In this document: positions 2,649-15,044 of the stretch, piece after piece | Numbering within the stretch: the stretch's first letter is position 1 | How the letters are laid out: every line of letters begins with the position of its first letter | IMG/VR virus record: IMGVR_UViG_3300032116_001478 | Coordinates: 1 to 21,756 of that record | DNA: 21,756 nt | Reading direction: 5' to 3' (one strand) | DNA from: a virus | Position numbers and translations under genes: made by a program | Notes under the pieces: model-generated | Told to the model about the DNA's origin: nothing | The model's input: the letters and a program-made list of their open reading frames with translations, nothing else | Databases searched by the model: none

Positions 2649-3035
2649 ATGAAGAAAGAAGAACTTAGACAAATGATTCGTGAAGAACTCAAATCTGTTT
2701 TAAGTGAACAAGCGTATCAATGGTGGTTGAAGCCAGCAGAATCAGAAACCGAAGACGCTCACCTAAACCCAAGTCAAGTTCACGAAGAAATATGTGAAGG
2801 AGAGGGATGTCTTGACGAAAAGTCTGTTCCACAACCATACAATCGTAAAGGCGCTCGTAAAATGACCAGGTCCCAAGTTGAACTTCGTAAAAAGATTGGT
2901 CAAGCTATGATGCGGGATGAAAAGAAAGTTAGTAAGTTCCGTAAAAAGTATGGTGACGAATGGAAAGATTATCTTTGGGCATCCGCTTCTGCCGCAGCAT
3001 TCAGACAAAGTGGTAGTAAAAAAGACAAAAAATAA
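2649..3035 (+). CDS. Small head-associated candidate with amphipathic N-terminal helix
   Basis: 128 residues from the ATG at 2649. A TTG 12 bases upstream is possible, but GGGA at 2639-2642 is correctly spaced for 2649. The N-terminus (MKKEELRQMIREELKSVLSE) is an amphipathic helix ending in Leu-Ser-Glu, which fits the [L/I]xE cleavage rule of T4 gp21-type prohead proteases. The middle holds two Cys in ICEGEGC (residues 49-54). The C-terminal part (about 70-120) is basic and helical, with the recurring phage pattern MTRSQ...LRKKIGQAM...KFRKKYGDEWKDYLWA. It ends in a Lys-rich tail. The next gene starts in the stop codon (TAATG). No enzymatic motif is seen; a packaged internal or core protein is a reasonable inference. 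Confidence 0.7.
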   Translation: MKKEELRQMIREELKSVLSEQAYQWWLKPAESETEDAHLNPSQVHEEICEGEGCLDEKSVPQPYNRKGARKMTRSQVELRKKIGQAMMRDEKKVSKFRKKYGDEWKDYLWASASAAAFRQSGSKKDKK

Positions 3036-4228
3036 TGAAATATACACAATTTTTTAACTTTGAACAGTATCATCATCCCCATAAAAGACACGACCCGCCT
3101 GGGTCAGAAGATGCGGATGTGAATAATGATGGTAAAGTCGATAAAAACGACAAATATATGATGGCAAAACGAAGATTATATAAACAATATCAGTCAGCAC
3201 AAAAAAGTAATAAAGAAACAGATTTTTCTACACCGCAGTTGGAGAATGATATGATTAGATTAATGGGATTAGTAGAATTACCATCCATAGTACGACTAAA
3301 AGAAGAATCACACGAAGAACCAACACCAGCTCCAACTGTAGCTGTTGATAAAAAGTCACAAGTTGCAATGAAACTTAAGAAACTTAAGGAAATGCAAATG
3401 ACTCCAGACCAAGAAAAGAAAGTTGATGAACTCTTGGCTCAATACGAAGAATTAACCGCTAAGCAAAAGCAACTTGACGTAGATAAGGACGGAAAGATTG
3501 AAGGTGATGACTTAGCAAAACTCCGTGCTGGTAAGAAGGCTGATGAAAAGCTTGACCCAGTAGGTAAAGAAGATGGTGACATAGATAATGACGGAGATAA
3601 AGACTCATCAGACAAGTATTTACAAGCTCGTCGTGATGCTATTGGTAAGGCAATGAAGAATGAAAACGAAGACCACGAAGTATCAATGGCATCCAAAACC
3701 CTCGACTCTATTATCAGACATGCAACTGAATTGAAGGGTAAGATTGGAATGGAAGAAAAAGACATTCCAGCATGGATTCAAGACCACATCGCAGTGGCTG
3801 AAAACAACCTTGACCAAGCAAATACCAGTTATCACGAATATGGTGACGAAGAAAAGACTGATATGCCAGTTGACAAGGACTTAGAAGCTATGAAGGAAAC
3901 GGTCAACGAAGCAGCTCCAGAAGGTTGGGAAAAGACTGTTCTCGCTATGAAGAAGCATAAAGAAATTGACAATCCTTGGGCACTCGCACATTGGATGAAG
4001 AAGAAGGGATACCAATCACATAAGAAAGAAACAGAAGAAGCAGTAACTATACAACCACAAGGTGGATTAGCAGCTGCTATTTCTGCATACAAAAATACAC
4101 CAACACACAGTTCAAAGCAACATGCCAAAGTAATACCAGCACACAAGCCAGGTGACACTTGGAAAACTGACAGCGGTAAAACCGCAAAGAAAAATTCAGA
4201 CGGAACTATCTCTTACACAGTGAATTAA
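3035..4228 (+). CDS. Mosaic protein with three dockerin/EF-hand-like calcium loops, candidate internal head protein
   Basis: 397 residues. Residues 1-10 (MKYTQFFNFE) resemble the MKTYQEFIAE capsid-targeting peptide of T4 internal proteins. Three calcium-loop sequences follow the D-x-[DN]-x-D-G pattern with Asp at position 12: 28-39 (DVNNDGKVDKND), 148-159 (DVDKDGKIEGDD) and 182-193 (DIDNDGDKDSSD). Asp at loop position 12 is more dockerin-like than calmodulin-like. A helical module at about 218-270 contains IPAWIQDHIAVAENNLDQA. Another at about 296-330 contains GWEKTVLAMKKHKEIDNPW and MKKKGY; I recall both modules from other marine phage proteins. The C-terminus is Lys/Thr-rich. The start is fixed by the TAATG overlap. 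Calcium binding and capsid packaging are inferences; no catalytic motif is seen. Confidence 0.8.
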   Translation: MKYTQFFNFEQYHHPHKRHDPPGSEDADVNNDGKVDKNDKYMMAKRRLYKQYQSAQKSNKETDFSTPQLENDMIRLMGLVELPSIVRLKEESHEEPTPAPTVAVDKKSQVAMKLKKLKEMQMTPDQEKKVDELLAQYEELTAKQKQLDVDKDGKIEGDDLAKLRAGKKADEKLDPVGKEDGDIDNDGDKDSSDKYLQARRDAIGKAMKNENEDHEVSMASKTLDSIIRHATELKGKIGMEEKDIPAWIQDHIAVAENNLDQANTSYHEYGDEEKTDMPVDKDLEAMKETVNEAAPEGWEKTVLAMKKHKEIDNPWALAHWMKKKGYQSHKKETEEAVTIQPQGGLAAAISAYKNTPTHSSKQHAKVIPAHKPGDTWKTDSGKTAKKNSDGTISYTVN

Positions 4229-4229
4229 T

Positions 4230-4586
4230 ATGGTAGCCAAATTTATTTCTCTTCTACTTTCGAGTAGACAACAAGCTCACATCTTTCATCTTCAAACTCC
4301 TTCCTATGCAGCACACAAAGCATTGCAAGAATATTATGAAGGAATTGTCGATTTAGTTGACACTTATGTAGAATCATATCAAGGTCGATATGGTATTCTC
4401 AAAGGATATATGCCAACCAATACTATTTTAGAAGATGACTCAGTAGTTAGTTATTTCGCAGGTTTACAAAAGTTCGTAGACGAAACCCGTGGTCAACTTC
4501 CACAAGACGGTGAACTTAATAACACCGTTGATGAAATTGCTGGATTAATTTCTAGCACAGTTTATAAACTTAAGTTCTTAAAGTAA
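4230..4586 (+). CDS. Dps/ferritin-like small helical protein (possible phage miniferritin)
   Basis: 118 residues predicted as four helices: about 5-22, 27-55, 70-90 and 95-117. H17, H29, D44 and E48 are separated by 12, 15 and 4 residues. This is exactly the spacing of E. coli Dps H51, H63, D78 and E82, which belong to its ferroxidase centre. Both also share Gln-Ala-His at the first His and align without gaps over about 40 residues to a Gly near the end of the second helix. Full Dps is about 167 residues, so this is a compact form; the Dps Asp at first-half position H63+4 is Gln33 here (Glu34 is adjacent). I recall related short proteins in marine phages under a DUF label (possibly DUF5856). 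It has no obvious capsid-targeting peptide. It starts one base after the previous stop (TAATATG), suggesting coupled translation. Confidence 0.82.
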   Translation: MVAKFISLLLSSRQQAHIFHLQTPSYAAHKALQEYYEGIVDLVDTYVESYQGRYGILKGYMPTNTILEDDSVVSYFAGLQKFVDETRGQLPQDGELNNTVDEIAGLISSTVYKLKFLK

Positions 4587-4587
4587 T

Positions 4588-4893
4588 ATGAAATACAGAG
4601 ATTTTTTCCCAGAAGGCTATTCAGATGGCGCGGTATTTAAACAAACCAAAGCTGATTTTGGTCAAGAAAAGCCAGAAGAAATGCCAGAAACCGACCCGCA
4701 AGATTTAGCAATTCGTAGTGCACGTATCAGTGATATCTTAGAACGCAACATCCCAACCAGTCCAGAAAAGTGGGCGAAGGCAAAGGCAGCAGCTCGTTCC
4801 AAGTTCAAGGTGTACCCATCCGCATACGCCAACCTTTGGGCAGCAAAGAAGTACAAGAGTATGGGTGGTGGATGGAAGAAGGGAAAGAAATGA
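4588..4893 (+). CDS. Small basic protein, candidate internal head protein
   Basis: 101 residues. The N-terminus MKYRDFFPEG shares MKYxxFF and a Glu at position 9 with the calcium-loop protein upstream, and resembles T4 internal-protein targeting peptides. Residues 20-50 form an acidic linker. The C-terminal domain (about 58-98) is basic: PEKWAKAKAAARSKFKVYPS, then AYANLWAAKKYKSMGGGWK. This KFKVYPSAYAN...KxYKxxGGxWK pattern is a recurrent small module in phage and giant-virus proteins, of unknown function, plausibly nucleic-acid binding. The gene begins after TAAT at the end of the Dps-like gene, and its stop overlaps the next start in ATGA. No catalytic residues are evident. Confidence 0.78.
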   Translation: MKYRDFFPEGYSDGAVFKQTKADFGQEKPEEMPETDPQDLAIRSARISDILERNIPTSPEKWAKAKAAARSKFKVYPSAYANLWAAKKYKSMGGGWKKGKK

Positions 4894-5216
4894 TTAAGTT
4901 AATGGACATCATACTTGATGATGTACAACCAGATGAAAAAGAAATGGTTGACGGTATTGTTGATATGCTCACTCAAGTAAAAGATGTTGATAATAGAAAA
5001 GAAATGGCCTTGGATAGACTAAAAGATTTTAAGCAAAGTAAAATCGATGTTGACCCAAAACAGTTTATGTCAAGAGTTGGTTTAGATGAAAAGTGGACAA
5101 AGAAATATAAAAAGTCCATTAACTGTAGTAATCCAAAAGGTTTTAGTCAAAAAGCACATTGTGCCGCTCGTCGTAAAAGACAGAGTGGTGGAACAACTAA
5201 ATCAAAACCAGTATGA
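4890..5216 (+). CDS. Small protein with C-terminal Cys/His basic module
   Basis: 108 residues from the ATG at 4890, chosen because it forms an ATGA overlap with the previous stop and follows GAAGGGAAAG. A longer frame upstream lies inside the previous gene and is unsupported. Residues 15-60 are helical (MVDGIVDMLTQVKDVDNRKE, then LDRLKDFKQSKIDVD), a pattern I recall from cyanophage proteins. The C-terminal module about 60-98 contains SRVGLDEKWTKKYKKSINC, then NPKGFSQKAHCAARRKR, with C79, H90 and C91 as potential metal ligands in a strongly basic context. This INCxNPKGFSQKAHCxxRKKR signature recurs in marine phages, but I know of no assigned function. Four-base overlap with the next gene. Confidence 0.78.
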   Translation: MIKLMDIILDDVQPDEKEMVDGIVDMLTQVKDVDNRKEMALDRLKDFKQSKIDVDPKQFMSRVGLDEKWTKKYKKSINCSNPKGFSQKAHCAARRKRQSGGTTKSKPV

Positions 5217-5542
5217 CGCGATTCGCCGATATCCTAGTTGAAGTGTCTGTTGACCTTGACGAAAAGTATAAGACCAAGGGAAGTCTTGGTAAGTGGCTTC
5301 GTCAAAAGTGGGTAGACATTTCTCGTAAAGACCCAAAGACCGGTAAGCATCCACCATGTGGAGCTTCGGCTGGTAAAGGGGAACGTAAGGGTGGGTCAGC
5401 AAAGTATCCAAAGTGCAGACCAGCCCGTTCCGCAGCAGCAATGAGTAAGGGTGAAAAACGGTCAGCAGTAGTTCGTAAGAGAAAGGCAGGAAATCCAGGT
5501 GGTAAACCAACAATGGTGTCCACATTTAAGAAGGAAGAATAA
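5213..5542 (+). CDS. Small basic Cys-containing protein (DUF5872-like), candidate internal head protein
   Basis: 109 residues. The N-terminus MTRFADILVE ends in Leu-Val-Glu at position 10, matching in both length and [L/I]xE rule the cleaved capsid-targeting peptide of T4 internal proteins. The body is basic: GKWLRQKWVDISR (26-38), PPCG (47-50, C49), YPKCRP (65-70, C68), AAAMSKGEKRSAVVRKRKA (74-92) and NPGGKPTMVST near the end. I recall this WVDISR...PPCGR...YPKCRP arrangement as a domain of unknown function (probably DUF5872) in phages and large DNA viruses; I could not verify the label. It overlaps the previous stop by four bases. Metal or nucleic-acid binding is a guess from Cys and Lys/Arg content. 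Confidence 0.8.
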   Translation: MTRFADILVEVSVDLDEKYKTKGSLGKWLRQKWVDISRKDPKTGKHPPCGASAGKGERKGGSAKYPKCRPARSAAAMSKGEKRSAVVRKRKAGNPGGKPTMVSTFKKEE

Positions 5543-5543
5543 T

Positions 5544-5960
5544 ATGGAAAATATTCAAGAAGCCTGTTGGGAAGGGTATAAGCAAGTTGGGATGAAGGAC
5601 AAAAGTGGAAAGATGGTCCCAAACTGCGTTCCTATTAACGAAGAAGATATCATTGAAGAATATTGCCCACGATGTCTCGCTATGGAAATCATGCGAGCAC
5701 AAGGTCAACCATTACAAGAAGCCGAATATCACGGTCGTAAAGTCCCTCTTGGAAAACCGATGCGTGGCGACGTTAAGAAATTCAAGGTGTTCGTTAAAGA
5801 CCCAAGTAGTGGTAATGTAAAGAAAGTAAACTTTGGCGACCCAAATATGAGAATCAAGAAGTCAAACCCAGCTCGTCGTAAGTCATTTAGAGCACGCCAT
5901 AACTGCGATACCCCAGGTCCACGTACCAAGGCACGCTATTGGTCGTGTAGAAAGTGGTAA
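5544..5960 (+). CDS. Cys-rich two-module protein, candidate internal head protein
   Basis: 138 residues from the ATG at 5544, preceded by AAGGAAGA and one base after the previous stop. An upstream in-frame ATG lies inside the preceding gene and is not needed. The N-terminal module is ACWEGYKQVGMKDKSGKMVP, then NCVP (about 7-30, C8 and C28), a recurrent phage motif. CPRC at 41-44 is a likely zinc knuckle. L57-Q58-E59 followed by Ala is a clean gp21-type cleavage site that would release the second module. That module (62-138) runs HGRKVPLGKPMRGDVKKFKV, VNFGDPNM, RKSFRARHNC and YWSC, with H119, C121 and C135. I associate it with a DUF6321-like domain, from memory only. Function unknown; a structural, metal-binding role is inferred. 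Confidence 0.82.
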   Translation: MENIQEACWEGYKQVGMKDKSGKMVPNCVPINEEDIIEEYCPRCLAMEIMRAQGQPLQEAEYHGRKVPLGKPMRGDVKKFKVFVKDPSSGNVKKVNFGDPNMRIKKSNPARRKSFRARHNCDTPGPRTKARYWSCRKW

Positions 5961-5961
5961 T

Positions 5962-6177
5962 ATGAAAGTATCCAGAAAGATATCCGATGCTATATTGAAA
6001 AAGATGGGGTATACATTCGATCCTGATGAATTTCATATGGGAATGAATGTAGAAATGGAACACCAAGATGTGACAAATGGAAACATGGTAAAAACAGCAA
6101 AAATAGCAGCCGCACACTTGACAGAAAAGCCAAATTATTATACATTACTAAAGAAGTATGTAGAAAAAAATAAATAA
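5962..6177 (+). CDS. Small DUF5661-like protein
   Basis: 71 residues. The pattern MGMNVEMEHQDVT, then TAKIAAAHLTEKPNYYTLLKKY, matches what I recall of the DUF5661 family (a (G)xxVExEHxxvT...AxxIAxxHLxExPxYYxxL signature), found in phages and some bacteria with no known biochemical role. The conserved Glu-His and Ala-His-Leu elements could form a metal or active site, but that is inference. It starts one base after the preceding stop (TAATATG), closing the small-gene cassette. It shows no targeting peptide ending in Glu. Confidence 0.72.
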   Translation: MKVSRKISDAILKKMGYTFDPDEFHMGMNVEMEHQDVTNGNMVKTAKIAAAHLTEKPNYYTLLKKYVEKNK

Positions 6178-6185
6178 GGGGTCAT

Positions 6186-7007
6186 ATGTTCGAATTAAAA
6201 ACAGGTGAAATAGTATTTTACCCTAGGTTTTCTGTATGTAAAGTTGATGATATGGTTATAATAACCACAAAAAAAATAGCAAGTAGATTTTTTGAAGTGG
6301 CGACACTTAGTGTAAACGAAATAGTTGGATACAATAGTAAAGTGGATAGAATTAAAGCTATAGATTACTTCTTATCCTCCGACCCTATCAATAGTTTTTA
6401 TTTAAACGATATAGAAATTAGACATGAAAGATTTGGAAGTGATACATTAAAGATACCTTTGAATGAGTTTTACGAAGAATTAAAAGTAAAAAACATATCA
6501 GATGTATTTTCCGTCGAGTATACCCAAGCTAACAAAGTAGTTTTTATCACAAGAAATCCAACAGACAGATTTTATACAGGATTCATAGAATGGGTAGATT
6601 CTGAATTTGGAAAGGTTAGTAATGGATTGCAACTTAGAGGTGATGTACCACAAGAGCAGGTTGACTCAGTATTAAACGAATATGTAAGAAAAATAGATTA
6701 TAATATTTTTTCTGATGCACATATGTCATTGTGGAATACATTTCTAATTAATTTTCTTGTTACAAACAATATAGAAAAGTATGTTAAAATAGTAAATTTG
6801 GATAATCCTTCACATATGCAAATTTTTAAAAAGGATTATGTGTTCGAACAACCATCAAATAAGTCTTATCTTAATATGTGGTTGACAAATTCTGACAATA
6901 GAGAATCAATAGAAGAATTATACAATAAGTTTAAGTTTTATTTTGATTTAGAAACAGAATCGTATAATAAGTTATTGAATATAAATTATAAGCAATTGGA
7001 GAGATAA
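6186..7007 (+). CDS. Sulfotransferase-like protein
   Basis: 273 residues. A beta-strand/loop/helix near the N-terminus (VIITTKKIASRFFE, about 24-37) resembles the 5'-phosphosulfate loop of sulfotransferases, especially the K-x-A-S form. FITRNPTDRFYTGF (120-133) resembles the 3'-phosphate-binding RxPxxRxxSxF motif, with Thr in place of Ser. SDAHMSLWNTFL (176-187) is like the His-containing segment that follows in Sulfotransfer_2-type enzymes. It would transfer sulfate from PAPS to a host or virion acceptor; the acceptor is unknown. Base composition is visibly more AT-rich than its neighbours (about 27% G+C in one line counted versus about 45% in a line of the capsid gene), suggesting recent acquisition. 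A good AAGGGG site precedes the ATG. The family call is moderate. Confidence 0.6.
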   Translation: MFELKTGEIVFYPRFSVCKVDDMVIITTKKIASRFFEVATLSVNEIVGYNSKVDRIKAIDYFLSSDPINSFYLNDIEIRHERFGSDTLKIPLNEFYEELKVKNISDVFSVEYTQANKVVFITRNPTDRFYTGFIEWVDSEFGKVSNGLQLRGDVPQEQVDSVLNEYVRKIDYNIFSDAHMSLWNTFLINFLVTNNIEKYVKIVNLDNPSHMQIFKKDYVFEQPSNKSYLNMWLTNSDNRESIEELYNKFKFYFDLETESYNKLLNINYKQLER

Positions 7008-7008
7008 G

Positions 7009-7347
7009 ATGGGACAACTAAAAGATTTACTCAACGAAGTAACCAGTCAAGTTCCACGTAGAGTTCAATTGATGCGTGTGGAAGCGGTGTTGGAAAATAT
7101 CGCACCAAAACTTAAGGAAGCTGACCAAAAGAAGCTTGCAGAAATTTATGTTGAATTAAAGCAATTGGCAGAAATGCTAAATGAAACTCCATATACTATC
7201 TTTAACGCAAGCCAATGGGGTTTGTTAGAAATGGTATTAAAGGGTAAGGTAGCAGAATTTAAGTTACTCGCAGAAGATATCGCAGAAGATAATAAAGATG
7301 TCGATGTTTGGCCATTGGCTACAGCACTCGACACCGTTCTCATATAA
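7009..7347 (+). CDS. Small helical protein of unknown function upstream of portal
   Basis: 112 residues, predicted almost entirely alpha-helical and acidic, with no Cys. The N-terminus MGQLKDLLNE ends in Leu-Asn-Glu at position 10, again fitting the [L/I]xE prohead-protease rule and the length of T4 targeting peptides. The rest alternates Leu/Ala/Glu/Lys heptad-like stretches (VEAVLENIAPKLKEADQKKL, IYVELKQLAEML). The start follows GGAGAG at a good distance, one base after the sulfotransferase-like gene. Position just before the portal gene suggests a head-assembly or internal role. I do not recognise the family. Confidence 0.7.
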   Translation: MGQLKDLLNEVTSQVPRRVQLMRVEAVLENIAPKLKEADQKKLAEIYVELKQLAEMLNETPYTIFNASQWGLLEMVLKGKVAEFKLLAEDIAEDNKDVDVWPLATALDTVLI

Positions 7348-7357
7348 GTGAGGGGTT

Positions 7358-9244
7358 ATGGCAGATACTAGTGTATACGGTCGCCTACGGAAACTGTTTT
7401 CCACAAACACAGTTGTCCGAAATGTAGGTGGAAAGAAGTTAAAAGTCGCTGATACCGACAATATCCAGTCGTTTATTAATAGACGAGGTATTGACCGGTA
7501 TCATCGTGTGTATTCATCAATGACTGGTGGATATGGTGCAGCTGGTGGTCGTTACGAATCAGCTGCAGCATTCCAAGGGTCACGCTTACAATTGTTCCGT
7601 GATTATGACATGATGGATAATGACCCGATAATTTCATCCGTAATGGACATTTACGCTGATGAATCTACTGTAAAAGACGAATTCGGTCAAGTACTCAGTA
7701 TCCGCTCCAAGAACCAACAAATTCAAGATATTCTCCATAACTTATTCTATGATGTATTGAATGTTGAATTCAATCTCTGGCCGTGGGTCAGAAACATGGC
7801 TAAGTATGGGGACTTTTTCTTATTCCTAGATATCGATGAAAAGTACGGTGTCGTGAATGTCATCCCGCTTTCTGTTTACGAAACCATCCGTGTTGAAGGG
7901 CAAGACCCAGGCAACCCATTCTCAGTTAAGTTCAAGATTGAAAATGATTTCTTGGCACTTGGTAAAAAGGAATTCGATAATTATGAAGTAGCACATTTCC
8001 GTCTTTTATCTGATACAAACTTCCTTCCATACGGTAAAGCTATGATTGAAGGAGGTCGTCGTATCTGGAAACAACTCCAATTGATGGAAGACGCGATGTT
8101 AATTCATCGTATCATGCGTGCTCCAGACAAGCGTAAGATATTAGTTGATGTGGGAAATATTCCACCGGCAGAAATCGATACACATATGCAACGCATCATT
8201 GACCGTATGAAGAAAGTGCCACTTGTTGACCCAAAGACCGGTGACTACAATCTTCGTTATAATATGATGAATATCACGGAAGATTTCTATCTTCCAGTGC
8301 GTGGTAAGGATTCTGGAACCGACATTACGAATCTTCCAGGCCTTCAATTCAATGCTATCGAAGACATTGAATATCTCCGTAACAAGTTAATGGCAGCATT
8401 CAAGGTACCAAAGTCATTCCTTGGGTACGAAGAAGATAATAGTGGTAAGGCATCGTTAGCAGCACAAGATGTTCGTTTTGCTCGCACCATCGAACGCATT
8501 CAACGCATTTTAGTGTCAGAACTTACCAAGATTGCAATCATCCACTTATATGTTCAAGGATTTACAGACGAAGACTTAATTGATTTTGAATTAGAAATGA
8601 CTTCACCATCAGTCATCTACGAACAAGAAAAGTTGAACTTGTGGAAGGAAAAGGTTGGATTGGCTAAAGATATCGCAGATAGTAAGTTCTTGTCACGTGA
8701 TTGGATTTACCACAACATTCTTCAAATCGCTGAAGATGATGCTAAGGCAGAACAAGATAAGATTGTAAAGGATGTTGAGTGGGTTGGTAAGGCAGAAGCA
8801 GTACAACAACAAGCCGCACAACCACAACAAGCACCAGAGGGTCCAGAAGGACAACCAGCAGAACCAGACGCTGGTGTAGAACAACCAACTGAAGAACCTC
8901 AACAATTAGCTACGGTAGATGATGTACTAGCTTCTCTTGAGGATTCCTCAGATGAAGAAGAAACTGGAGATGAAGCTGAATTAGAAGAAGCAAAAATGGG
9001 CCGTCCAAAAGTAGGGATGAAATACGGTCAAGATAGTCATCCACGTGGTCGTGACCCAATTGGACATAAAGAAAATCTTGGAGCTTTGCGAGTAGGACAA
9101 CAACGTAAACCATCTAGAAAGTCACCATTATCTCTTGAAAATTACGAAGTTTCTAATCTTATTAAACAATTAAACGCTCATAAAATCGCACCAGAAACCT
9201 CTAGTATATTAAACGAAGATAACATTTTAGACATCGAAAACTAA
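7358..9244 (+). CDS. gp20: Portal vertex protein (gp20-like) with long acidic C-terminal extension
   Basis: 628 residues; forms the dodecameric ring at one capsid vertex that nucleates head assembly and through which DNA is packaged. Recognisable T4-type portal segments include the N-terminal RYHRVYSSMTGGYG, RDYDMMDNDPIISSVMDIYA, the clip/stem region around MLIHRIMRAPDKRKILVDVG, and KLMAAFKVPKSFLGYEEDNS. T4 gp20 is 524 residues. The surplus is C-terminal: a Gln/Pro/Glu-rich linker from about residue 480, then an acidic stretch, then a basic segment at about 542-580 (MGRPKVGMKYGQDSHPRGRD) and a short helix. Start at AGGGGTT-ATG. The extension may contact scaffold or DNA, but this is inferred. 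Confidence 0.95.
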   Translation: MADTSVYGRLRKLFSTNTVVRNVGGKKLKVADTDNIQSFINRRGIDRYHRVYSSMTGGYGAAGGRYESAAAFQGSRLQLFRDYDMMDNDPIISSVMDIYADESTVKDEFGQVLSIRSKNQQIQDILHNLFYDVLNVEFNLWPWVRNMAKYGDFFLFLDIDEKYGVVNVIPLSVYETIRVEGQDPGNPFSVKFKIENDFLALGKKEFDNYEVAHFRLLSDTNFLPYGKAMIEGGRRIWKQLQLMEDAMLIHRIMRAPDKRKILVDVGNIPPAEIDTHMQRIIDRMKKVPLVDPKTGDYNLRYNMMNITEDFYLPVRGKDSGTDITNLPGLQFNAIEDIEYLRNKLMAAFKVPKSFLGYEEDNSGKASLAAQDVRFARTIERIQRILVSELTKIAIIHLYVQGFTDEDLIDFELEMTSPSVIYEQEKLNLWKEKVGLAKDIADSKFLSRDWIYHNILQIAEDDAKAEQDKIVKDVEWVGKAEAVQQQAAQPQQAPEGPEGQPAEPDAGVEQPTEEPQQLATVDDVLASLEDSSDEEETGDEAELEEAKMGRPKVGMKYGQDSHPRGRDPIGHKENLGALRVGQQRKPSRKSPLSLENYEVSNLIKQLNAHKIAPETSSILNEDNILDIEN

Positions 9245-10670: not shown

Positions 10671-11258
10671 ATGAAGAACTTATTAGTCGAATATAATGTA
10701 ATTGAATACGGAAAAGATTTATTAGCTGAAGCGGCTGATGTGAGTAAGCCATTAATGTTAAAGAATGTTCTTCTCCAACGGGCTGAAGCAAAGAATCAAA
10801 ACGGTCGTATTTATCCTCGTGAAATTCTACAGCGTGAAGCAGGCCTTTACAAAGAAAATTTCGTAACACAACGCCGTGCACTTGGCGAATTAGACCATCC
10901 AGAAAGTCCAGTTGTCAACTTAAAGAATGTATGTTGTAATGTGACCGAACTTTGGTTTGAAGGTCAAGATGTTCGTGGTAACATTGAAATTCTTTCTACT
11001 CCATCTGGTAATATTGTTCGTGAACTTATCAAGAACAATATTCGTCTTGGTGTTTCATCCCGTGGAATGGGGTCAGTTCGTCAAATGGGCGAAAGTACCG
11101 TAGAAGTTCAAGACGATTTTAGTCTCATCTGCTTCGATATCGTCAGTAACCCAAGTACCCATGGTGCGTTCATCAACGAAAGTAAAAAGGAACAAATCGT
11201 TACCCCTTATTCTCGCATCGATTCACTCGTATACGATTTCCTTAGTGAAGTAAAATGA
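10671..11258 (+). CDS. gp21: Prohead maturation protease (gp21-like)
   Basis: 195 residues; serine protease that cleaves scaffold, capsid protein and internal proteins during prohead maturation. Family hallmarks: an NGRIYPREIL segment (44-53), the His motif GELDHPES (H76), the Ser motif LGVSSRGMG (S129/S130), and CFDIVSNPS (154-162). T4 gp21 is 212 residues, so length is normal. Potential self-processing sites follow the same [L/I]xE rule: LVE7, LAE20/Ala and INE170/Ser. The gene starts in a TAATATG junction after AGAGGAAAG and overlaps the metallopeptidase gene by four bases. Which of the two adjacent Ser residues is catalytic cannot be decided here. Confidence 0.94.
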   Translation: MKNLLVEYNVIEYGKDLLAEAADVSKPLMLKNVLLQRAEAKNQNGRIYPREILQREAGLYKENFVTQRRALGELDHPESPVVNLKNVCCNVTELWFEGQDVRGNIEILSTPSGNIVRELIKNNIRLGVSSRGMGSVRQMGESTVEVQDDFSLICFDIVSNPSTHGAFINESKKEQIVTPYSRIDSLVYDFLSEVK

Positions 11259-11830: not shown

Positions 11831-12049
11831 ATGTACGTTGAAGTTAAAGGTGATAAGCAATCAGATTTAGAACGAGCACTCCAACAATTCGTCAAACAAG
11901 TCAAAAAGGCTGAATTGATGGAAGATTTGAAGAAGAAGGAATTCTATTTAAAGAAATCAAAGAGACTCCAAAAGAAGAGTCAAGATGCGCTTCGTCGTAG
12001 AAAGCGTGAAGAAAGTAAAGCACAAAAGAAACAGAATAATACCTTTTAG
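11831..12049 (+). CDS. rpsU: Ribosomal protein bS21 homologue
   Basis: 72 residues. The opening MYVEVKGDKQSDLERALQQF and the basic tail (RLQKKSQDALRRRKREESKA) match the bS21 plan: a short beta start, an Arg/Lys-rich helix with the A-L-x-x-F pattern, then Y-L-K-K-S in place of the cellular Y-x-K-P-S, and a terminal basic helix. Length is within the normal 55-75 range. bS21 binds the 30S platform next to the anti-SD and promotes initiation. Phage-encoded bS21 has been reported in aquatic phages, including pelagiphages. It is embedded in the head operon between the metallopeptidase and scaffold genes, so it would be expressed with virion proteins. A proposed role in steering ribosomes to phage mRNAs is established as a hypothesis in the literature; here it is inference. 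Confidence 0.88.
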   Translation: MYVEVKGDKQSDLERALQQFVKQVKKAELMEDLKKKEFYLKKSKRLQKKSQDALRRRKREESKAQKKQNNTF

Positions 12050-12181: not shown

Positions 12182-13441
12182 ATGGCAAAAGTAGAAATCA
12201 CGAACAAACTTTTAAAGGAAGCTATTGCAGACGCAGAAGCAGTTCGTCAAACTGCAATTGAAAATGCAAAGCTTTCATTAGAAGAAACATTCACACCCCA
12301 AATCAAGTCAATGTTATCCCGCCGTCTTCGTGCAGAAGCAGAAGGCATGGAACATGACGAAGAAGAAAAGGATGTAGAAACAAAGGAAGCACCAGAAGCT
12401 GAAAAGGAAGCTCCAAAGGCTCCAGTTGCTTCAACAGAAACAAAGATGGAAACTGCAACAGAAACACCACACGAACAAGGTGAACCAGAAGGCGGTGACC
12501 TCGCAGCAAGTTCAGACATCGGCGCAGGTGACAATAAGGAACCATCCGATGCATCATTCGATTCAGCAGATGACGATATGAGTGGTGAAGATGCAGGCGA
12601 AAGTGATACCGATTGGTATGACGATTGGTCAGATGCAGATTTCGACCTTGACGAAGTAATCAAGGAACTTGAAGCAGACCTCAAGGAAGTTTCACACGAC
12701 GAAGAAGAAAAGGAAGAAATGAAGGAAGAAGTAGAAGGTGAAGAACACGAAGAAGAAAAGGAAGACGAGAAGGAAGAAGAAAAGGCTGACGAATCATACC
12801 CAATGGAAGACCCAGAAGGTGGTGCAGAAAAGCCAGAAATTCCAGCTAAGTCTTCAGATATTGGAACAGAAGCTGCAGATACCGCAGCAGATGTAAATAC
12901 TTTCGTAACCGAACCATCAGATGTAAATAAGATGGAAGGTGAAGAAATGAATGGTCACGAAGAAGGCGAAGAAGAACTTGATTTGGAAGCAATTCTCAGA
13001 GAATTGGAAGCCGAAGATGAAAAGCATAAGGCATCATCTGAAAAAATGGCATCCCTTGAGAAAGAACTTGCAGAATATCGTCAGGCTGTTAAGCTCCTAC
13101 GAGGCAAGCTACACGAAGTCAATCTTCTCAACGCAAAACTCCTTTATACCAACAAAATCTTCCGTAAGGAAGGTTTGACTACCGAACAAAAGGTAATGGT
13201 CGTAGAAAACTTCGACCGCGCAACCACAGTTCGTGAAATCAAGATGGTATACACAGTTTTGGTCGAAACATTAACTTCAGCAGCAAAGGCAGTAAAGGCA
13301 ACAAAAGCACCAAGTAAGGTGGTCACCGAAGGGTTCGCAAGTAAAGCAACCCCAAGTACCGCTCCAAAGACTGAAGCACCAGTAGTTATCGCAGAAAACT
13401 CTGTTGCAAAGCGTCTACAACAACTCGCAGGAATTATCTAA
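12182..13441 (+). CDS. gp22: Prohead core scaffold protein (gp22-like), highly acidic
   Basis: 419 residues; internal scaffold around which the capsid assembles, later degraded by the prohead protease. The N-terminus is helical (MAKVEITNKLLKEAIADAEA) with an LKE/Ala cleavage-type site at 11-14. Residues about 55-280 are Glu/Asp/Ala/Lys-rich low complexity, with two related helical units (DLDEVIKELEADLKE and ELDLEAILRELEAEDEK). The conserved C-terminal core is LRGKLHEVNLLNAKLLYTNK, then IFRKEGLTTEQKVMVVENFD (about 303-343), which I recognise from T4-like scaffold proteins. T4 gp22 is 269 residues; the excess is the acidic region. Position immediately before the capsid gene and the shared ribosome-binding block support the call. 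Confidence 0.9.
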   Translation: MAKVEITNKLLKEAIADAEAVRQTAIENAKLSLEETFTPQIKSMLSRRLRAEAEGMEHDEEEKDVETKEAPEAEKEAPKAPVASTETKMETATETPHEQGEPEGGDLAASSDIGAGDNKEPSDASFDSADDDMSGEDAGESDTDWYDDWSDADFDLDEVIKELEADLKEVSHDEEEKEEMKEEVEGEEHEEEKEDEKEEEKADESYPMEDPEGGAEKPEIPAKSSDIGTEAADTAADVNTFVTEPSDVNKMEGEEMNGHEEGEEELDLEAILRELEAEDEKHKASSEKMASLEKELAEYRQAVKLLRGKLHEVNLLNAKLLYTNKIFRKEGLTTEQKVMVVENFDRATTVREIKMVYTVLVETLTSAAKAVKATKAPSKVVTEGFASKATPSTAPKTEAPVVIAENSVAKRLQQLAGII

Positions 13442-13460: not shown

Positions 13461-15044
13461 ATGTCCGAAGTAAATTCACTCATCAACGAAGCCGGCTCAG
13501 CACACAAGGTTATCGTTGAACAATCCCGCCAATTGGCAGGAAAGTGGGAAAAGTCAGGCCTTCTTGAAGGCTTGAAGGGAGCAGAAAAGCAAGGTATGGC
13601 AGTAATGCTTGAAAACCAAGCTTCACAACTTCTCCAAGAAAACTCATACACCAACCTCGCAGGCACCAATGGTGAACAATGGGCAGGTGTAGCACTTCCA
13701 TTAGTCCGTAAGGTCTTCGGAAGTATCGCAGCAAAGAACTTCGTATCAGTCCAACCAATGAACCTTCCTTCAGGACTTGTGTTCTATATGGACTTCAAGT
13801 ACGGAACCACTGTAAACGGAAAGACCTCAGGAACCTCACTCTATGGTAACGCATTAAGTACACCATTTGGTGGTTTCGGTAACACCGATACAGGCGGATT
13901 ATACGGTGCAGGTCAATTCGCTTACTCAGTAAACGATGCAACCGTAACCGGTTTAACCACCGCACCAGCATCAGCATCATTCTCAGATGTAAACTTCAAC
14001 GCAGACTTCGTAGCAACTGGCAGTCTTTCAAAGTACTCAATCTCAACCAGTTCATTCACCAATCTTGATAAGCTCGCAGTCCGTTCATTTGTTCCATCAG
14101 GTTCAGCAATCGACTTCGCAGCATTGGTTCTTCCAGAATTCACCAAGATTGTTGGTGCAAACGTTGTCTTCATCGTAAATGCAAACGTAGCATCAGGAAA
14201 CCAAATCAACTCAGTTGCATACAGTAAGCAACCAACCGATTCAACTCGTGGTGACTTCGAAGCAACCAGTGATACTGATTTGAACATCCCACAAATCGAC
14301 TTAGAACTTAAGTCAGAAACAATCGTAGCAAAGACCCGTAAGTTGAAGGCAGTCTGGTCACCAGAACTTGCACAAGACTTAAACGCTTACCACAGTGTTG
14401 ATGCAGAAGCTGAATTAACAGCAATGTTAAGTGATTACATCTCAACCGAAATCGACCTCGAAATCCTTGATATGTTAATCGCAGCTGTACCATCACAAAC
14501 CACTGAATACTGGTCAGCACAAATTGGTACTGTATACAACCCAACATCTGGTGCATTCGCAGCATCATCATACACTGGTACTGCATGGACCAATATGACC
14601 TGGTTCCAAACACTCGGTCAAAAGATGCAAAAGGTATCAAACAAGATTCACCAACTCACCATGCGTGGTGGTGCAAACTTCGCAGTATGTTCACCAACCG
14701 TTGCAACAATCCTTGAAACCATCCCAGGCTTCATGGCAAACACCGATGGTGACAAGATGGAATTCGCAGGTGGCGTAACCAAGGTTGGTTCATTCCAAAA
14801 CCGTTACACCATCTACAAGAACCCATACATGAAGGAAAACACATTGTTGATGGGCTTCCGTGGAAGTAACTTCCTCGAAACTGGTGCAGTCTACGCACCA
14901 TATATCCCACTCATCATGACTCCGCTCGTGTATGACCCAAACAACTTCACCCCACGCCGTGGTGTGATGACCCGTTACGCAAAGAAGGTTGTACGCCCAG
15001 AATTCTTCGGAAAGGTGTACATCGACGGATTAAACTTAGTCTAA
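13461..15044 (+). CDS. gp23: Major capsid protein (gp23-like)
   Basis: 527 residues, close to T4 gp23 (521). The N-terminal region KWEKSGLLEGLKG...MAVMLENQASQLLQE and the C-terminal YAKKVVRPEFFGKVYIDGL are diagnostic. The HK97-type core lies between. LQE60/Asn61 is the expected prohead-protease cut, comparable with T4 gp23 cleavage after residue 65; an additional INE10/Ala site sits at the very start. The central part is Ser/Thr/Ala/Asn-rich (TSGTSLYGNALSTPFGGFGN and around), probably the insertion or surface domain. G+C is higher than in the surrounding genes by eye, consistent with codon selection in an abundant protein. Followed by a strong terminator. Confidence 0.96.
   Translation: MSEVNSLINEAGSAHKVIVEQSRQLAGKWEKSGLLEGLKGAEKQGMAVMLENQASQLLQENSYTNLAGTNGEQWAGVALPLVRKVFGSIAAKNFVSVQPMNLPSGLVFYMDFKYGTTVNGKTSGTSLYGNALSTPFGGFGNTDTGGLYGAGQFAYSVNDATVTGLTTAPASASFSDVNFNADFVATGSLSKYSISTSSFTNLDKLAVRSFVPSGSAIDFAALVLPEFTKIVGANVVFIVNANVASGNQINSVAYSKQPTDSTRGDFEATSDTDLNIPQIDLELKSETIVAKTRKLKAVWSPELAQDLNAYHSVDAEAELTAMLSDYISTEIDLEILDMLIAAVPSQTTEYWSAQIGTVYNPTSGAFAASSYTGTAWTNMTWFQTLGQKMQKVSNKIHQLTMRGGANFAVCSPTVATILETIPGFMANTDGDKMEFAGGVTKVGSFQNRYTIYKNPYMKENTLLMGFRGSNFLETGAVYAPYIPLIMTPLVYDPNNFTPRRGVMTRYAKKVVRPEFFGKVYIDGLNLV

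Follow-up and report, generated by a model that had tools for sequence, protein, structure and literature searches.

Short Glu-ended N-terminal peptides in the head operon of a T4-like environmental phage as candidate capsid-targeting tags

Why do many small and unrelated genes of a phage head operon start with a short peptide that ends in glutamate? This question is raised by a 21.8-kb IMG/VR virus record, obtained from environmental DNA and belonging to a T4-like phage (IMGVR_UViG_3300032116_001478, positions 1 to 21,756; the whole stretch is called the window here). A sequence-only reading had listed six such peptides, five of them in the cassette at 2649-7347 and one on the capsid protein, and all six were found as N-termini of tightly packed open reading frames (ORFs). 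Named by their start positions, gene 5213 has an ATG that overlaps the preceding TGA, and genes 4588, 5544 and 7009 start just 3' of a stop codon. It is quite probable that these peptides are capsid-targeting propeptides which work like the capsid-targeting sequence (CTS) of the T4 internal proteins (IPs).

Mutagenesis of T4 IPIII indicated that positions 4 and 7 of the CTS matter for targeting and positions 8 and 10 for processing, and an Asp at position 10 kept targeting but blocked processing (PMC9026906). The CTS has been described for T4 and its relatives and was suggested to be a general T4-like device for packaging various proteins (PMC9026906); nothing about such tags in phages of the present group was found in the open PMC literature. 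From the IPIII positions a T4 register was derived, consisting of hydrophobic residues at 4 and 7, Leu or Ile at 8 and Glu at 10. The pattern was written after the tags had been seen, the positions themselves coming from the T4 experiments. The tagged and untagged genes are as follows, a slash marking the end of the peptide:
5213..5242, + strand: MTRFADILVE/V, tag of gene 5213-5542, full match to the T4 register
7009..7038, + strand: MGQLKDLLNE/V, tag of gene 7009-7347, full match to the T4 register
4890..4919, + strand: MIKLMDIILD, tag of gene 4890-5216, Asp and not Glu at position 10
5544..5561, + strand: short tag MENIQE/A of gene 5544-5960, Glu6 being the tag end
4588..4614, + strand: aromatic tag MKYRDFFPE/G of gene 4588-4893
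3035..3064, + strand: aromatic tag MKYTQFFNFE/Q of gene 3035-4228, body with dockerin/EF-hand-like loops
2649..2708, + strand: candidate long helical propeptide MKKEELRQMIREELKSVLSE/Q of gene 2649-3035, about 20 residues, ending LSE/Q
13461..13490, + strand: MSEVNSLINE/A at the start of gp23, register match
4230..4586, + strand: untagged cassette gene, DUF5856, in a PHROG shared with a T4 rI.-1-type annotation
5962..6177, + strand: untagged cassette gene, DUF5661
6186..7007, + strand: untagged cassette gene of 273 amino acids, in 3 of 72 related loci only, no family match of use, recent insertion probable

The tags were compared with those of 80 related contigs, in 72 of which genes lie between terminase and portal; contig genes and start codons were called with a simple purpose-written gene caller. 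Across 15 aligned proteins of the 5213 family D6 and E10 never change, the linker after E10 differing in length, and the relatives of gene 7009 carry MIKLTDLITE/A, MSTKLKDLLSE/N or MAQLKDLLNE/V. Hydrophobic residues at positions 4 and 7 are present in 5213, 7009, 4890 and gp23, loosely in 3035 and 4588, and not in the shorter tag of 5544. The cutting rule L/I-x-E at the peptide end is found in 5213 (LVE) and 7009 (LNE), as the sequence-only reading had said, as well as in 5544 (IQE at 6) and 2649 (LSE at 20). Gene 4890 is predicted to have a tag that targets yet escapes cutting, because Asp10 has this effect in T4 IPIII; its relatives show MIKLMDLIPE, MIKLVDILLTE or MIKLVDIILE ahead of the same CSNPKGFSQKAHC module. 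The relatives of gene 4588 end in LYE/A, LLE/A, VLE/A or IFE/D, which is closer to the T4 cutting rule than the FPE of the window, and those of gene 3035 use FFQFE, FFKFE, LFKE and NIHE wordings ahead of a conserved HxRxDP body. For gene 2649, relatives retaining QAYQWW end in IKE/Q, INE/Q, MKE/Q or LSE/Q and some relatives are without such a site; a propeptide may exist here, as a weaker case than the short tags. The N-terminus of gp23 reads INE/A or ISE/A in nearly all relatives and FLDD/A in L081; by analogy to T4 gp23, the main cleavage is expected near residue 61. The Glu-ended peptides turned out to be a real signal once relatives were compared, but the original set had missed 4890 and 2649 and had placed the tag end of 5544 at Glu10 (CWE). 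The latter was rejected: CWE lies inside the CWxGYK domain, where E and D vary, and the Glu two residues ahead of CWxGYK, residue 6, is invariant in 23 aligned proteins.

In the related contigs one body can bear several tags and one tag several bodies. Near-identical peptides (MIKLTDLLxE, MIRLTDILCE, MTRFADILVE, MKYKDFFxxxxE) are found on unrelated bodies, with the Glu end directly ahead of the body, and MIKLTDLLKE or MIKLTDLVEE also occurs on rare bodies. Conversely, the CSNPKGFSQKAHC module follows MIKLMDLIPE/E, MIKLVDILLTE/K, MIKLVDIILE/R or MKRLKDFIPE/E, the CWxGYK module follows MENIQE/A, MENLNE/A, MEQMTE/A or MIRLTDILCE/S, and the body of 4588 follows MKYRDFFPE/G, MKYKDFFSDLYE/A or MEYKDFYKELLE/A. 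The metalloprotease-like gene 11255 is untagged in the window and starts with MRLKALLNE/N in relatives. As judged from these exchanges, the N-terminal peptides are a modular tag, separate from the domains behind. The claim that a CTS-like peptide is shared by unrelated small head-operon proteins stands, the peptide being swappable and a gp21-like protease lying nearby.

A fused protein of Synechococcus phage S-SM2 (L121:7674-8102) contains an N-terminal MKTLKQFLKE plus an internal FEEFRE/SWSNKYKKS ahead of CSNPKGFSQKAHC; the internal FEEFRE looks like an old tag trapped by gene fusion.

Three of the mini-domains also exist in seven small phages, where the proteins start at or inside the domain and no separate tag lies ahead. 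The domain of 5213 is present in HTVC023P as MSLKKWFNEKWVDIG... and likewise in HTVC027P, HTVC106P and 023Pt_psg01, that of 4588 in HTVC023P as MTKLCARGKAAAKRKFKVYPSAYAN and also in HTVC027P and DSL-LC04; Kolga and CRP-738 encode the FRARHNC module. The gp21 family (phrog_207) was detected in 0 of 7 small-phage genomes versus 6 of 6 T4-like controls, T4 included. The gp21-bearing cyanophage Bellamy and phage C48C1 carry reworded tags (Bellamy gp122 MKSFKQFQE/SWSNKYKKS; C48C1 MKKFKQYIDE/GCCEAC). As few lineages were compared, this co-occurrence of tag and gp21 is an association and not a proof. With looser register patterns, matches arise within domains as well (MSLKKWFNE of HTVC023P lines up with the body sequence SLGKWLRQK), and such patterns were for this reason left out of all claims on these small phages. 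Loss of the N-terminal peptides in homologues that keep the domains had been proposed as the outcome that would speak against the targeting idea; the comparison favours the tag, as the 5213 and 5544 families never lose the Glu ahead of the body, while their tags and linkers differ in length, and the same domains are untagged where gp21 is undetectable. Comparison of genes shows that a tag with this register exists, is confined to the head operon, behaves as a module and is missing from the same domains in phages where gp21 was not detected.

The same swapping bears on the strongest competing explanation, in which the tags are scaffold-docking peptides of structural or assembly proteins (like gp67/gp68, minor core), so that the tagged proteins would take part in head building or DNA condensation instead of being delivered to the host as effectors. 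It may hold with a probability somewhat short of even: the genes sit within the head operon, several bodies are basic, the acidic bodies of 3035 and 7009 could be core proteins, and shell proteins of the gp23 and gp24 type bear the same peptide. However, the cargo bodies are swapped, gained and lost among close relatives, unlike core assembly proteins, and the same domains occur untagged in unrelated small phages.

A second explanation takes the Glu-ended N-termini as ordinary parts of domains or as chance, without targeting role. A Glu at residue 9 or 10 is found in 9 of the 28 genes of the window (binomial p=0.001) and in 5 of the 10 genes of the cassette (p=0.002), the background being 10% among 448 genes that lie outside the head region in related contigs. 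In this plain form the statement is only mildly unusual, because three of the nine window genes are irrelevant (two in the tail region, one with a doubtful start), and the CWE of 5544 is truly part of a domain. Of 18 head-operon families, 9 have L/I-x-E with its Glu at residues 8-13 as their rule, versus 1 of 91 families elsewhere in the same contigs (Fisher 1e-7). The strict register occurs in 18 of 121 head genes, 0 of 458 other genes and 0 of 634 internal Met; these gene-level counts take same-family genes of several contigs separately, and the independent test is that by family (5/18 head versus 0/91 other, p=7e-5). Allowing a shift of one, 26 genes match, compared to a mean of 0.8 and a maximum of 5 in 1000 shuffles. 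Head-operon confinement, register, tag swapping and untagged homologues contradict this explanation and make it improbable.

That the conserved N-termini reflect a translation-start or operon-coupling constraint on the mRNA, as overlapping and abutting genes might share, is hardly credible, since the codons of shared tag residues agree at 85 of 149 positions where 75 are predicted from codon usage, the conservation concerns amino acids and stops at the Glu, and the neighbours 4230 and 5962 have the same spacing without a tag. From the codon agreement, barely above expectation, the tags look kept as protein, and recent copying of tag DNA is unsupported.

T4 itself served as a check of the capsid-targeting reading. 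The strict register is present only in gp24, IPII, IPIII and gp61.1 of 277 called genes, the first three being gp21 substrates (PMC5694885, PMC9026906). A position-specific scoring matrix (PSSM) trained on the cassette places Alt, gp24, gp22, IPII and IPIII within the top 12 of T4, and five known substrates in the top 12 were matched by only 0.5-1% of controls.

The fourth T4 protein, gp61.1 (54 amino acids, NC_000866 18966-19130, - strand, locus L124), starts with MKTFKEFIKE/D, fits the CTS register of IPIII and has similar sequences in 1387 phage records; going by its sequence, it is a candidate for an unrecognised head protein. In Microcystis phage Mel-JY01 three neighbouring paralogues start with MIKLKSLLQE/IISDRVWH or similar (L165:276-926, L165:2056-2718), which are the best-scoring tags of that genome, and relatives of them exist in Vibrio, Dickeya and Alishewanella phages. 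The guess that they are ADP-ribosyltransferases was dropped, as neither Pfam, PHROGs and NCBIfam nor the sequences of the PDB bore it out.

The genes around and downstream of the cassette include the following:
1007-2596: terminase
7358-9244: portal gp20
10671-11258, + strand: gp21-like prohead protease, PHROG head maturation protease match, E 6.9e-50
12182-13441, + strand: gp22-like scaffold, assigned by its place between gp21 and gp23 and a net charge of -63
13461-15044: major capsid protein gp23

The protein of 10671-11258 is 32% identical to T4 gp21 (E 2e-21), with the ELDHP and GVSSRG motifs aligned, and presumably cuts the tags. The scaffold gave no match in family searches and is presumed to be the docking partner. 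According to the proposed mechanism, a tag of 6-12 residues (about 20 in one or two genes) with hydrophobic positions 4 and 7/8 would bind the growing gp22-like scaffold core and carry its protein into the prohead, where the gp21-like protease would cut after the terminal Glu if the site allows. Once freed, the small and mostly basic proteins would remain alongside the packaged DNA and probably depart together with it. In different phages the tag module is joined to different bodies, reworded, shortened or lost. Packaging of the tagged proteins in the prohead appears well supported by the gene comparisons, cutting of the tag is likely for some proteins, and targeting as well as cutting are inferred by analogy to T4; injection, the counter-defence role that had been proposed and any other function in the new host would be speculative.

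Several observations weigh against the capsid-targeting reading. The tags are known here from sequence alone. Genes 3035 (NFE) and 4588 (FPE) break the L/I-x-E rule, a poor fit already seen in the sequence-only reading, and the Asn at P3 makes cutting of 3035 doubtful; 4890 (ILD) departs from the rule with its Asp10. The three cassette genes 4230, 5962 and 6186 are without a tag, and because of them the whole 2649-7347 cassette can no longer be assumed to form a packaged set, as had been proposed. HTVC008M bears gp21 and has the FRARHNC module without a clear tag, and genome-wide register matches in Bellamy and HTVC008M are few and not above a Lys/Gln control. Furthermore, the PSSM rank-sum p (1e-5) was rejected as proof from T4; it is non-specific because training sets seeded on hydrophobic-x-E yield the same p.

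Among known systems the closest is the CTS of T4 IPI-IPIII and Alt (MKTYQEFIAE in IPII/IPIII), also a short N-terminal peptide with hydrophobic residues at 4, 7 and 8 and Glu at 10, a gp21-type protease and unrelated, variable small bodies, many of them basic. Here, in contrast, many tagged genes are clustered between terminase and portal, and their tags come in several forms (rich in I/L, aromatic, very short or long and helical). No IP or Alt family is among the Pfam, PHROG and NCBIfam matches of the bodies, which were never compared directly with T4 IPs and are therefore not filed as IP homologues. The propeptide of T4 gp24 (MAKINELLRE) likewise has ten residues, is removed by gp21, shows the strict register and sits on a shell protein, comparable to MSEVNSLINE on gp23 here, but gp24 is a vertex shell protein and not cargo. 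The ejection proteins of phiKZ and SPN3US (gp175/gp245 proteases) also lose propeptides after Glu and are packaged and ejected (PMC5694885), whereas their propeptides mostly exceed 100 residues and are cut at A-x-E or S/A/G-x-E. In phage P1 an N-terminal peptide sends the anti-restriction protein DarB into the head (PMC9024508), a likeness by description and with a single 250-kDa cargo. The present system is a variant of T4 capsid targeting in which the tagged genes are clustered and the tags are swapped.

Behind residue 10 the bodies have net charges of +8 (4588), +8 (4890), +18 (5213) and +16 (5544), being basic like T4 IPs, whereas 3035 and 7009 have acidic bodies. The proteins may protect the DNA, alter the host or just aid packing. 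Below threshold, Pfam weakly matched 4588 to positions 1-40 and 5213 to positions 49-84 of a single family, DUF5872, and both domains lie in adjacent genes in HTVC023P and HTVC027P, which would fit a joint action. No match of weight to a defence or counter-defence protein came from PADLOC or NCBIfam for the cassette proteins, and a PDB search gave no useful function. The quality of the AlphaFold models of 5544 and 5213 (predicted local distance difference test scores of 59 and 49) did not permit a fold search.

Among cultured phages, the portal is most like that of Mel-JY01 (55% identity), followed by that of Flavobacterium phage immuto (52%); a DNA-level search of the phage collection with the window gave no match. 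Genes 3' of gp23 were assigned to neck, sheath and tube from their order and their likeness to cultured relatives. A small basic gene (11831-12049) that lies between gp21 and the scaffold and is kept in relatives weakly matches a phage family of ribosomal protein S21. Outside the window, a few genes upstream of the terminase, L017, L033, L067 and L081 encode a protein of 909-1031 amino acids with a tag-like start (MKSAIDILFE, MKFKHINKLFE, MSNPINNLFE, MNLDKLFE). Two immuto proteins (records 25061, 111675) start with MKKQILSEQFRRMQKLAGIITES or a close variant, and the scaffold of the window ends in RLQQLAGII before its stop codon (gene end 13400-13441), which would fit another kind of N-terminal tag, copied from the C-terminus of the scaffold.

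If the capsid-targeting reading is right, a ten-residue rule would allow T4-like head cargo, otherwise seen only by virion mass spectrometry, to be read from raw genomes, and likely head cargo would include several aquatic mini-domains, namely parts of DUF5872 and the modules CSNPKGFSQKAHC and FRARHNC. There is about an even chance that gp21-bearing phages share a portable packaging code, in which short tags recruit free-standing mini-domains, untagged in small phages, for delivery by the head. If so, the tag would predict packaged cargo in uncultured phages, and would also flag T4 gp61.1 as cargo and the MIKLKSLLQE-type paralogues of Mel-JY01 as tagged candidate effectors.

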